64,000 bases of DNA from an uncultured Verrucomicrobiota bacterium (lineage in GTDB: Bacteria; Verrucomicrobiota; Kiritimatiellia; CAIQIC01; Lenti-01). Location of the stretch: NCBI GenBank assembly GCA_937860055.1, contig CALMBO010000013.1, positions 1 to 64,000 of the forward strand, read 5' to 3'. A program made the position numbers and the translations under genes. Positions 6,482-62,516 of the stretch are shown here, one piece after another. Each line of letters starts with the position of its first letter. The stretch's first letter is position 1. A model generated the notes under the pieces. The model did no database searches and was not told the origin of the DNA. It saw only the letters and a list, made by a program, of their open reading frames with translations.

Positions 6482-7321
6482 ATGATCAAGAACATCCTCT
6501 TCGGCGTCGATGGTTCGCCCGGCGGCGAGATCGCCGGAGACTACGCCATCCATCTGGCCCTGCGGCTCGACGCCCGCCTTGAAGCCGTCCACATCGTCGA
6601 TTCCCGCATGCTCGAATTCCCCCTCGTCGCCCCGCAGGCGGGCGTGATCACCTGGAGCCCCGGCGCGGTCAACGGCCTCCAGCAGGCCCTGCGCGCGCGC
6701 GGCGAAACCCTCCTGAAGGAAACCGCCGCCCGCGCCGAAAAGGCCGGCATCCATCTCGTCACCGCCATCGAGTTCGGCCATCCCGCGCAGGTCTTGGCCG
6801 ACATCCAGTCCCGCACCGAGCTCGTCGTCCTCGGCCGGCAGGGGGAGCATTCGAAGACCGCGCCCGACATCACCGGCTCGACCATGGAGCGCTTCATCCG
6901 CCGCGCCGACCGCCCCTGCCTCGTCACCCCCGCCGCCTTCAAGCCCATCGGCAAGATCCTGGTCGGCGTGGATGGCTCCCCCTCCGCCGGCCACGCCCTG
7001 CGCGAAGCCATCGGGCTCGCCAACGCCCTGAAGGTCCCGCTCGTCATCCTCTCCGTGGCCGAGACGGAGGGCGATCTCGTCCGCGCGCAGCAGACCAATC
7101 TCGAAGCCCACAGCATCGCCCGCGCCCACAATTGCGCCGCGGCGGCCATCACCGCCGTCGGCGCGCCGGCCACCCGCGTCATGGAGCAGGCCGCCGCGGC
7201 GGCCTGCGACCTGATCGTGCTCGGCTCCCACGGCCATGGCTGGATCTACGACCACCTCATCGGCAGCGTCGCCGCCCATGTCGTCTCCAGCGGCCAGATG
7301 CCCGTCCTGCTCGTGCGCTGA
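6482..7321 (+). CDS. universal stress protein, tandem UspA domains
   Basis: [26 protein letters not shown] and second copy [21 protein letters not shown]-terminal [22 protein letters not shown]. Confidence 0.93.
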
Positions 7322-7360
7322 ACCCCCTCTCCCCCACGCGGTTAATCGCGGCCCGCGATT

Positions 7361-7401
7361 TTTTCCACACCGTGGAAAAAACTTTTCCACGCCGTGGAAA
7401 A
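7361..7401. repeat. two copies of palindrome TTTTCCAC-N3-GTGGAAAA
   Basis: 7361-7379 TTTTCCACACCGTGGAAAA; 7383-7401 TTTTCCACGCCGTGGAAAA. Confidence 0.95.
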
Positions 7402-7467: not shown

Positions 7468-7496
7468 GTTTGCGCGCCGCCGCCGGCCGCTATAAT
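7468..7496 (+). promoter_or_regulatory. promoter of parA-like gene
   Basis: Perfect -10 TATAAT (7491-7496) in a GC-rich context, SD GGAAGGA before ATG 7528; -35 poorly defined. Confidence 0.55.
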
Positions 7497-7527: not shown

Positions 7528-8376
7528 ATGCCCACACCCATCATCGCCATCGCCAACCAGAAGGGGGGCGTCGGCAAGACCACCACCGCCGTCAATCTCG
7601 CCGCCTGCCTCGCCGAGCGGCGCAAAAAGGTGCTCTTGATCGACCTCGATCCGCAGGCCAACGCCACCAGCGGCCTCGGCCTCGCCAAAACCGAGGGCGC
7701 CAGCATCTACGACATCCTCCTCAGCGACAAGCCCCTCGCCGACATCATCCAGAAAACCTCCAACGACCGCCTCGATCTTGTCGCCTCCGAGGTGGACCTC
7801 GCCGGCGCCGAAATCGACGTGGCGCGCGCCGACCACTACCTCCAGCGCCTGACCATGTCCCTCGAACCCCTCGCGGCGCAGGAAATCTACGACTTCATCC
7901 TCGTGGACTGCCCCCCCTCCCTCGGCATCCTCACCATGAACGCCCTGTGCGCCGCCGACGGCCTCCTCATCCCCATGCAGTGCGAGTACTACGCCCTCGA
8001 GGGCATCAGCGTCATCCTCAACCTCGTCAACAAGCTGCACGATTCCGGCGCCGCCCCCCGCCTTGCCGTCGAAGGCATCGTGATGACCATGTACGACCTG
8101 CGCACCAACCTTTCCCAGCAGGTCGTCGGCGAAATCCGGGGCCATTTTCCCGACAAGATCTACGAATCGCTCATCCCCCGCTCCGTGCGCCTCGCCGAGG
8201 CCCCCTCCCACGGGCTGCCTATCATCGCCTACGACGCCAACTGCACCGGCGCCGCCGCCTATCGCCAGCTCGCCCGCGAATTCCTCAAGCGGCGCAAGGC
8301 CGGCGAAGCCCCCGCCGAAACCGAAGCCGCGGCCGGGGAAGAAGCCTCCGCCACGCCCGTGCCCTCCCCCTCCTGA
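7528..8376 (+). CDS. ParA/Soj-family ATPase
   Basis: [25 protein letters not shown] deviant Walker [20 protein letters not shown]; no ParB gene adjacent in the window. Confidence 0.94.
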
Positions 8377-33990: not shown

Positions 33991-34114
33991 TTCCGGGACC
34001 CCCATGGCCTTGCGCCATGGGTGAACAAGGTTGCTTCCCCTCCTCCGTCCCCCTGACCTTGCCTCGGTTTTCCATTCCGGGACCCCCATGGCCTTGCGCC
34101 ATGGGTGAACAAGG
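33991..34114. repeat. 40-bp perfect direct repeat, each containing an 8-bp-stem hairpin
   Basis: TTCCGGGACCCCCATGGCCTTGCGCCATGGGTGAACAAGG at 33991-34030 and 34075-34114; stem CCCATGGC-CTTGC... pairs with GCCATGGG. Confidence 0.93.
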
Positions 34115-34190
34115 CCCTCTCCCCTCCGCCGACTCCCCTCCCTTTCCACATCCGCATTTTCCGGCGCTCGAAAATTTTTCCTTCCGGCAC

Positions 34191-34248: not shown

Positions 34249-35766
34249 ATGACCCAAGGAAAACACATGCTGCTCGAGACTTTCCCCTCCCGCGAGGAGT
34301 TCCGCGCCCTCCTGGGCTCCTCCTCCGTGGTGCCCGTCGGCGCGCGCATCCTGGCCGATACCGAAACGCCCGTCTCCGTCCTCGCCCGCTTCGCCCCCCG
34401 CCACCCCCACCTCTTCCTCCTCGAAAGCGCGGAAGGCGGCGAACGCTGGGGCCGCTACTCCTTCATGGGCGTCTCCGCCCGCGCCACCGTCACCGTCTAC
34501 CGCAACGATGTCGTCGTCCGCCAGGGCATCGAGGAAAAGCGCATTCCCCACCAGGGTGCCCCCCTTGCCGTCCTCCGCGGCCTCATGAAACCCTACAAGC
34601 TGGCGCACCTGCCCGGCCTGCCCCGCTTCTGCGGCGGCCTCGTCGGCTACTTCGCCTACGAAATGATCCATTTCTTCGAGCCGCGCGTCCCCAACAAGCT
34701 CCCCCCCGAACGCCCCATGGCCGAGTTCGTCATCCCCGACACCCTCCTCATCTTCGACAACGTGAACCACACCCTCACCGCCGTCGCCCTGGCCTTCAAG
34801 GAGGACGGCGATCCCGATGCCCTCTTCGACGCCGCCTCCGCCCGCGTGCAGGACCTGCTCGCCACGCTCGCCCAGCCGGTTCCCCAAGGCTCGCCCACCG
34901 GCAAAACCCCCATCCGCAAGCCCCAGGCCATCCATCCGCCCGAACATTTCAAGGACATGGTCACGAAGGTCAAGGAACACATCACCGAGGGCGACATCAT
35001 TCAGTGCGTCATCTCGCAAAGCTTCGTCGGCCCCGCCCCGGACGACCTCGTCAGCCTCTACCGCGCCCAGCGGCACGTGAACCCCTCGCCCTACCTGTTC
35101 TTCCTCAAGGCGCAGGGATGCACCCTCATCGGCTCCTCCCCCGAAACCATGATCCGCCTCGACAACCGCACCGCCACCCTCCGCCCCATCGCCGGCACCC
35201 GCCCCCGCGGCGCCACCGAGCAGGAGGACCGCAAGAACGCCGACAGCCTCCTGCAGGACGATAAGGAACGCGCCGAACACCTCATGCTCGTGGACCTCGG
35301 CCGCAACGAGCTCGGCCGCGTCGCCATCCCCGGCACCGTCCAGGTCACCGACCTGATGATCGTCGAGCGCTACTCCCACGTCATGCACCTCGTCTCCAAC
35401 ATCACCGCCGACCTCGAGCCCGGCCACGACGCCTTCGATGTCTTCGCCTCCTCGTTCCCCGCCGGCACCCTCTCCGGCGCCCCCAAGATCCGCGCCATGG
35501 AAATCATCGCCGGCCTCGAGGACGAACCCCGCGGCCCCTACGGCGGCGCCGTCGGCTACGTCTCCTTCGACGGCAACATGGACTTCTGCATCTGCATCCG
35601 CACCGCCGTCGCCGAACACGGACGCCTCACCATCCGCGCCGGCGCCGGCATCGTGGCCGACTCCGACCCGGACTATGAACTGCGCGAAACCCAGAACAAG
35701 GCCGGCGCCATGGCCCGCTCCATCGAACTGCTCCAGACCGCCCAGAAAGCCGAACTGAAACCCTGA
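34249..35766 (+). CDS. trpE: anthranilate synthase component I
   Basis: FIRLDNRTATLRPIAGTRPRGAT-type region; PAGTLSGAPKIRAMEII; first trp gene. Confidence 0.96.
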   Translation: MTQGKHMLLETFPSREEFRALLGSSSVVPVGARILADTETPVSVLARFAPRHPHLFLLESAEGGERWGRYSFMGVSARATVTVYRNDVVVRQGIEEKRIPHQGAPLAVLRGLMKPYKLAHLPGLPRFCGGLVGYFAYEMIHFFEPRVPNKLPPERPMAEFVIPDTLLIFDNVNHTLTAVALAFKEDGDPDALFDAASARVQDLLATLAQPVPQGSPTGKTPIRKPQAIHPPEHFKDMVTKVKEHITEGDIIQCVISQSFVGPAPDDLVSLYRAQRHVNPSPYLFFLKAQGCTLIGSSPETMIRLDNRTATLRPIAGTRPRGATEQEDRKNADSLLQDDKERAEHLMLVDLGRNELGRVAIPGTVQVTDLMIVERYSHVMHLVSNITADLEPGHDAFDVFASSFPAGTLSGAPKIRAMEIIAGLEDEPRGPYGGAVGYVSFDGNMDFCICIRTAVAEHGRLTIRAGAGIVADSDPDYELRETQNKAGAMARSIELLQTAQKAELKP

Positions 35767-35787
35767 ACTCTGAACCCTGAACCCTGG
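35761..35787. repeat. 7-bp-period repeat, trpE/trpG junction
   Basis: CCCTGAA CTCTGAA CCCTGAA CCCTGG. Confidence 0.9.
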
Positions 35788-35794
35788 CCCTCCC

Positions 35795-36415: not shown

Positions 36416-36465
36416 AATCCCGACCTCCAAGCCTGCCGATCCTGAACCCCGAACCCTGAACCCTA
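36378..36465. repeat. inverted pair of 7-bp-period repeats, trpG/trpD junction
   Basis: Left GGGTTCAGAGGACCGGATTCAGGGTTCAG (to 36407); right CCTGAACCCCGAACCCTGAACCCT (36440-36465). Confidence 0.85.
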
Positions 36466-36477
36466 TCGAGGCCCCCC

Positions 36478-40168: not shown

Positions 40169-40199
40169 CCCCTGAACCCCGAACCCTGAACCCTCTCCC
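40165..40199. repeat. 7-bp-period repeat, DAHP synthase/trpB junction
   Basis: CTGACCC CTGAACC CCGAACC CTGAACC CTCTCCC. Confidence 0.9.
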
Positions 40200-40202
40200 C
40201 CT

Positions 40203-41422: not shown

Positions 41423-41472
41423 TTTTCCACACCGTGGAAAAAAGTGCCGCGATTTTTCCACACTGTGGAAAA
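41423..41472. repeat. two copies of palindrome TTTTCCAC-N3-GTGGAAAA between trpB and trpA
   Basis: 41423-41441 spacer ACC; 41454-41472 spacer ACT. Confidence 0.95.
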
Positions 41473-41491
41473 CTTTCAATCGTCTGCTTCC

Positions 41492-41519
41492 CCCTGAACC
41501 CCGAACCCTGAACCCTGCC
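41492..41519. repeat. 7-bp-period repeat, trpB/trpA junction
   Basis: CCCTGAA CCCCGAA CCCTGAA CCCTGCC. Confidence 0.9.
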
Positions 41520-41528
41520 CCCTAACCT

Positions 41529-46072: not shown

Positions 46073-46091
46073 TTTTCCACACCGTGGAAAA
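46073..46091. repeat. single copy of palindrome TTTTCCAC-N3-GTGGAAAA upstream of dnaE
   Basis: TTTTCCACACCGTGGAAAA. Confidence 0.95.
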
Positions 46092-46150
46092 ATCGGCCCC
46101 GGAAAGCAGGCGGCGCCTTCCCTCGCCGGAGGCGGAGGACCGGCCGGGAC

Positions 46151-61400: not shown

Positions 61401-62516
61401 TCACCTCGCCACCTGTTTCAGAACATACCACAGCTTTTCCGCGCTGGCGGCCCAGGTGAAACCTGCGGCGCGCCGCTTCGCCGCTTCCGCCAGCCGGTCC
61501 CGCTCCATCCGCGGCAAGACGATCGCCTCCCGCAGCGCCGCCGCCAGGACGGCCTCGTCCCGCCCGTCCGCATAGCGCACGGCGTCCCCGCCGATCTCGG
61601 GGATCGAGGCCTCCCGCGTCGTCAGCACCGGCGTCCCCGCGCACATGGCCTCCAGCACCGGCAGGCCGAAGCCTTCGTAGAGGGACGGAAACACAAACCA
61701 GTCCGCGTGCTGGTACAGCGCGATCAGCCCGTGCCACGGAACGCCCGGGAACCGGACCACGCGGCCGGGCGGGGATTCCTCCAGCGCGGCGGCGACTTCC
61801 GCCTCTCCCAGGCGCGCCTTGCCCACCAGCACCAGCCGGTGCGGGATTTCCGCCGCGATCCGGTTGAACGCACGCACCAGCCGCGCCACGTTCTTGTGCG
61901 GATAGGTATGCGCCACGCACAGCAGATAGGGGGCGCCTTCCACCTCCCGGGGAGGCGCCCCGTCCGGCACGCCGAAGGCCGGATCGGCCGCCAGCAGCGT
62001 CACCGCCACCTTTTCCGGCGGCACGCCGAGGAAATGGACGATCTCCGACTTGGCGAACTCCGAAATGGCCACGATGGCCCTGCTCCGGCGCGCGGCGGCG
62101 GGATACAGCACATCCATCGTGCGCGCCGCAAGCCAGGAGACATCCTGCGGAAACCGCTTGTACTGCATGTCGAGGATGGAGACCACCTGCGGACACGCGC
62201 ACGCCGCCGGCGCCGTGTAGCCCGGCGACCACAGCGCATCCACCCGCGCCCGCTTCGCCAGCCGCGGCAGCTGGATCTGCTCGGCCAGGATGCGCGCGAA
62301 ACGGTTCGTGGCGGCGATTCCCGTCTCCACCACTTCCGCGCCGGGGAGCTCCCCGCGAAGCGGCCCGTCGTTTTCCACGTTGGAGAACAGCACCAGATCC
62401 GGCCGGTCCGGGAAGCGCAAGAGCGCGCGGAGGGTCTCCCGCAAATAGGTTTCCGATCCCCCCACCTCGCCGGGAAGATAGAAGAGCGCGTTAACGCCCA
62501 GCCGCAGGGCGGTCAT
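61401..62516 (-). CDS. glycosyltransferase family 4/1
   Basis: LPGEVGGSETYLRETLRAL; YLLCVAHTYPHKNVARLVRAFNRI; PSLYEGFGLPVLEAMCAGTPVLTT. Confidence 0.93.
   Translation of the reverse strand: MTALRLGVNALFYLPGEVGGSETYLRETLRALLRFPDRPDLVLFSNVENDGPLRGELPGAEVVETGIAATNRFARILAEQIQLPRLAKRARVDALWSPGYTAPAACACPQVVSILDMQYKRFPQDVSWLAARTMDVLYPAAARRSRAIVAISEFAKSEIVHFLGVPPEKVAVTLLAADPAFGVPDGAPPREVEGAPYLLCVAHTYPHKNVARLVRAFNRIAAEIPHRLVLVGKARLGEAEVAAALEESPPGRVVRFPGVPWHGLIALYQHADWFVFPSLYEGFGLPVLEAMCAGTPVLTTREASIPEIGGDAVRYADGRDEAVLAAALREAIVLPRMERDRLAEAAKRRAAGFTWAASAEKLWYVLKQVAR

Follow-up and report, generated by a model that had tools for sequence, protein, structure and literature searches.

The window, a stretch of 64,000 nucleotides from an uncultured bacterium of the Verrucomicrobiota, carries five exact copies of a 19-bp palindrome, TTTTCCAC-N3-GTGGAAAA, at the positions and with the spacers claimed for them in the initial annotation (Table 1). 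Two of these copies lie between a universal stress protein gene and a gene for a ParA-family ATPase, and the 22-bp step reported for this pair is borne out, with the two dyads 22 bp (~2 helical turns) apart and separated by the 3-bp linker AAC. The dyads of the copies that start at 41423 and 41454 are 31 bp (~3 turns) apart, with a 12-bp linker. A weak sixth match appears at 62371 once three mismatches are allowed, a tolerance at which dinucleotide shuffles of the window (n = 100) gave a mean of 0.10 matches. The further palindrome that had been noted beside the parA-side pair, AATCGCG-GCC-CGCGATT at 7344-7360, is present, but it does not belong to the family, the sequence being unique in 857 kb of its own genome. 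An Rfam scan of the window returned no match.

Table 1. Palindrome copies of the window and the genes and promoter next to the parA-side pair
Feature	Coordinates	Strand	Basis
Universal stress protein gene, upstream of the 7361/7383 pair	6482..7321	+	Pfam Usp 4.7e-40
Palindrome copy, spacer ACC	7361..7379	.	exact match
Palindrome copy, spacer GCC	7383..7401	.	exact match and array geometry
parA promoter, TTTGCG ... TATAAT	7469..7496	+	sequence comparison; kept in relatives without palindromes
ParA-family ATPase gene, downstream of the 7361/7383 pair	7528..8376	+	Pfam AAA_31 6.9e-60; NCBIfam
Palindrome copy, spacer ACC, trpB-trpA gap	41423..41441	.	exact match
Palindrome copy, spacer ACT	41454..41472	.	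exact match and array geometry
Palindrome copy, spacer ACC, ~160 bp upstream of dnaE (minus strand)	46073..46091	.	exact match

Size, range and geometry of the palindrome family

The genome from which the window derives (G000; 3.05 Mb in 29 contigs) holds 83 exact copies of the palindrome and none of a reversed control pattern. For the general form TTTTCCA-N5-TGGAAAA, in which the arms are shorter, the count rises to 234, and the palindrome is a dispersed family, as had been proposed, and no local oddity. The initial annotation understated the feature, both in this number of general-form copies and in their organization into arrays whose members are spaced at constant steps of 22 or 31 bp. Among 146 genomes of the window's class, 62 contain at least one copy of the general form, with a maximum of 718 and control counts of 0 or 1, while genomes from other classes of the same phylum contain 0-7 copies each. 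Copy number within a single genus ranges from 14 to 234. Named records with arrays are nearly all labelled as Kiritimatiellae, Lentisphaerae or Verrucomicrobia MAGs, and the family is restricted to the window's class, which these records identify as the Kiritimatiellia. A search of the open-access literature on the motif and on palindromes of the Kiritimatiellia found nothing relevant. Among 2.9 million viral contigs, one carries an array. It lies in frame within a small gene (L390:3188-3580) that has a helix-turn-helix-like start and no Pfam match; the same contig has a gene that resembles, by eye, a phage transposase.

Arrays consist of one to seven copies, the centers of which are 22 or 31±1 bp apart, equal to two or three helical turns. 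In all stretches read, pooled over many genomes, neighboring copies were spaced 22 bp apart in 76 cases and 30, 31 or 32 bp apart in 41, 225 and 46 cases, with few other values; dyads separated by whole helical turns, the arrangement expected of cooperative dimers, account for almost all neighbors. Linkers measure 2-3 or 11-13 bp and are mostly variable in sequence, with some local resemblances, for example GAAAGT ahead of one subtype, and no conserved tag is found in the flanks past ~1 base.

Every one of the 186 exact copies examined has a C or a G at its center. Lineages differ in the inner bases of their half-sites, with CG, CA or TT in G000, AG in family f2 (G017), AT in families f3 and f4 as well as in G011 of the window's own family (f1, of which G012 is also a member), and AA or AT in G102. 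At positions 8/12 and 9/11 bases combine as they would for independent half-sites, and self-complementary inner pairs in G000 (49 of 90) compare with 53.5 expected under independence. A hairpin or cruciform would favor complementary pairs and a protein dimer would not, so that the independence of the half-sites argues against a hairpin and fits a dimer. A transcription terminator or RNA hairpin was rejected because runs of T precede the stem on both strands and the arms lack co-variation. The orientation of an asymmetric TTGYG subtype relative to transcription, judged by eye, was inconsistent.

Placement and persistence of the arrays

Based on gene positions from a simple codon-model caller that was seeded with parA, trpA, trpB and dnaE and checked by plausibility alone, the exact copies are intergenic in 85 of 90 cases in 857 kb of G000, 59 of 64 in G017 and 15 of 32 in G102. 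Across these three genomes arrays occupy 78 of the 404 gaps between co-directional genes, 18 of the 84 convergent gaps and 21 of the 142 divergent ones, so that promoters do not attract them. In G000 alone, arrays lie mainly in co-directional and convergent gaps and divergent gaps are array-poor (3 of 74). The listed sites of G102 are spread uniformly along its complete 3.88-Mb chromosome (15, 11, 13, 15, 12 and 11 per bin; KS p = 0.84), with no surplus near dnaA. When the genes that flank arrays were clustered, neither a common function nor an autoregulated DNA-binding gene stood out.

Persistence differs between loci. Within f1 the array upstream of parA is present in G000 only and absent from all 13 relatives (in one, the readable sequence covers only 124 bp); in f2, G020 has a degenerate pair at parA, in a lineage where about one-third of gaps hold arrays. 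Relatives without the array keep the parA promoter. Given the absence of the array from the 13 relatives, the ParA gene next to the 7361/7383 pair is best regarded as an incidental neighbor. Upstream of trpA, an array occurs in 8 of the 10 f1 genomes with a readable upstream region, its palindromes intact in strongly diverged surroundings. A site -160 to -162 upstream of dnaE is found in G000, G006, G016 and G002, has decayed in G004 and is missing elsewhere; G006, G016 and G002 have an intact pair, at -160 and at -184 or -191. Some array sites are thus old and retained, and others turn over. From species to species the dnaE and parA arrays appear and disappear, so individual sites are dispensable.

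Arrays also persist inside coding sequence. Between the NGD and GRYG motifs of a nucleotidyltransferase gene (Pfam NTP_transferase) lie one to seven palindromes, at the same place in 11 of 13 f1 genomes as well as in f2, f3 and f4 members, in a lineage-specific spelling and with steps of 22 or 30-32 bp. These palindromes are read in all three frames (20, 14 and 16 cases), encoding FSTxWK, FHxxEK or FPxxGK, so that what is kept is the DNA and not the peptide. The same in-gene place across four families, each with its own spelling, points to recognition at the DNA level by a protein that would have co-evolved with its sites. In aroB of G017 two copies are 32 bp apart and in frame, a pair common to G020; the aroB genes of G021 and G025, congeners of G020, are without exact copies, and the corresponding loop in f3, f4 and f1 is shorter. 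Four copies lie in a transporter permease gene of G000, and 17 of the 32 exact copies in G102 lie within genes, 11 of them in one frame. In G102 sulfatase-like genes an exact palindrome encodes IFQTLEK or LFQTLEK at the same protein position (L285:12532, L288:17670, L290:4798 and L290:7221).

Candidate functions of the arrays

The location of one pair between usp and parA and the DnaA-box-like half-site TTTTCCACA had led to the suggestion of a parS-like centromere of the neighboring ParA, or of DnaA boxes involved in replication control. Both are highly improbable. The parS idea is contradicted by the 13 f1 relatives that have no array at parA and by copies that extend over the whole chromosome without bias toward dnaA; the sites of matS/MatP, NBS/Noc and parS/ParB are likewise short palindromic chromosomal protein sites, but either keep to certain chromosome regions or are excluded from them, whereas this family is uniform. 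As for DnaA, canonical boxes (TTATTCACA and TTATCCACA) precede dnaA in G000, and in 857 kb of this genome TTATCCACA occurs once and TTTTCCACA 71 times. No TTATNCACA-type core matching the organism's DnaA is maintained: the spelling varies (CAY, CAAG, CAAT), extending to palindromes without CACA, despite a DnaA recognition segment, GRNHATV, that is identical in G000, G003, G004, G011, G018, G019 and G102. Operators of a conventional global transcription factor at ~100 promoters would account for the phased pairs of dyad-symmetric sites, which are typical of operators, for the intergenic enrichment in G000 and for the arrays kept upstream of trpA and, in several species, ~160 bp ahead of dnaE. 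However, arrays are as frequent in convergent as in divergent gaps, lie inside coding sequence and adjoin genes without shared function, and the parA promoter is retained without its array, so that this function is unlikely. The DNA uptake sequences (DUS) of the Neisseriaceae come in dialects that follow phylogeny and occur both in genes and between them (PMC3630211). A comparable signal for uptake or self-recognition, maintained by molecular drive, would be consistent with the lineage dialects, the genic and intergenic copies, the uniform distribution and the many in-gene copies of G102 with their reading-frame bias. Yet uptake sequences are short, are not defined by palindromes or helically phased arrays, and reach thousands of copies, more than the palindromes do, and lone half-sites are only mildly over-represented in G000 (TTTTCCAC, 51 observed vs 39 expected), though more so in G017 (TTTTCCAA, 114 vs 13). 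Such an origin is possible, but at a low probability.

Palindromic repeats that lie in frame within coding genes also include the Rickettsia palindromic elements, although the present family differs from these in its phased 19-bp units, its use of three frames and its positions that persist across families. A selfish or domesticated dispersed repeat of that kind, or of the REP/REPIN kind, copied by a transposase and without host function, is a possible but rather unlikely origin. The REP-like repeat suggested in the initial annotation agrees only loosely with the data. Copies are indeed numerous, and REP (GTAG/CGTC) and REPIN-RAYT elements are likewise small dispersed palindromes present in the hundreds, mostly intergenic, some in genes, and clustered. 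Strong copy-number differences between close species, in-frame copies inside genes and a palindrome with no stop codon in any frame are consistent with such a repeat, as is a weakly positive correlation, uncorrected for kinship, between copies and Y1 transposase genes over the 146 genomes (Spearman 0.28, p = 0.0005). Copy-number variability and the gap preference in G000, which matches the preference of REP elements for co-directional and convergent gaps (PMC3733652), favor this origin. Conversely, there is no GTAG/CGTC tag, the information content of the flanks being close to zero in G017 and G102 and G000 showing no tag, and the half-sites show neither a surplus of complementary arms nor the co-variation expected of hairpin arms. 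Y1 genes do exist, Y1_Tnp being present in 125 of the 146 genomes, but a RAYT-type transposase beside the arrays was not found, as none of the eight Y1 genes examined adjoins an array (in three cases, imperfect single matches are scattered within 1.5 kb), and two palindrome-rich genomes, G010 and G070, hold 72 and 63 copies without a Y1 match. Nor does repeated insertion explain a position within a gene that is kept in four families while the spelling changes. The dyad spacing fixed at 22 or 31 bp, even within genes, is a further difference from REP elements.

The palindromes are probably docking arrays for a putative dimeric, chromosome-wide DNA-binding protein, a reading based on copy numbers, spacing, symmetry statistics, distribution, kept positions and lineage spellings. 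The two half-sites (TTTTCCA..), with a dyad on a C/G base pair, would form the site of a dimeric sequence-specific protein peculiar to part of the class Kiritimatiellia, and dyads two or three turns apart would place several dimers on one face of the helix, where they may bind cooperatively. A dimer that loads cooperatively on arrays and works chromosome-wide is the simplest model for the dyad symmetry, the odd C/G center, the independent half-sites, the whole-turn spacing, the lineage spelling and the indifference to genes. As arrays occur in convergent gaps, operons and coding sequence and are evenly spread, the putative binder would most likely be a chromosome-wide organizer, nucleoid-associated or architectural, and not a regulator of individual promoters. 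The specificity of this protein may have shifted between lineages, with the sites following. Counting against docking arrays are the range of copy number within one genus, from 14 to 234, the dispensability of individual sites, and the paucity of arrays in the divergent gaps of G000, which resembles REP elements.

CdbA of Myxococcus xanthus, a nucleoid-associated RHH protein, binds many sites genome-wide with sequence specificity and has little direct transcriptional effect (PMC7156744). The proposed binder would be similar in these respects, a likeness drawn by description, but the specificity of CdbA is reported to be only moderate and its sites do not form phased arrays of 19-bp palindromes. 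A more far-reaching version, in which the dimer docks on hundreds of phased arrays, within genes and outside them, as a class-wide organizing system, and so strongly that the sites reshape protein sequences and change their spelling together in each lineage, is conceivable and is put forward tentatively.

Should a protein bind the arrays, a little-studied class would possess a sequence-specific chromosome protein with hundreds of recognizable sites, and the sites alone would suffice to trace the evolution of this binder. Arrays within genes, with helical spacing kept across three frames, would represent an unusually clear case of a DNA-level constraint overriding protein sequence. The family also makes it testable whether dispersed bacterial palindromes are kept by a host function or by self-copying.

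Other repeats in the window

A second dispersed intergenic repeat, (C)CCTGAACCCCGAACCCTGAACCCT, lies between the trp genes at 35760-35791, 36439-36470, 40169-40200 and 41491-41522; the sequence GAACCCTGAACCCT occurs 11 times in 857 kb of G000, always in intergenic sequence. At 33991-34147 lie two tandem copies of a 73-nt repeat built around CCATGGCCTTGCGCCATGG, a sequence found three times in the same 857 kb, each time intergenic, with a similar element upstream of trpA in G001. The element GGCGCCTTCC/GGAAGGCGCC, located at 46091-46150 and in the flanks of many G000 arrays, is no more than 120 bp away from 13 of 37 arrays, as compared to 26 of 318 gaps generally, and is a companion element of the arrays in the lineage of G000.
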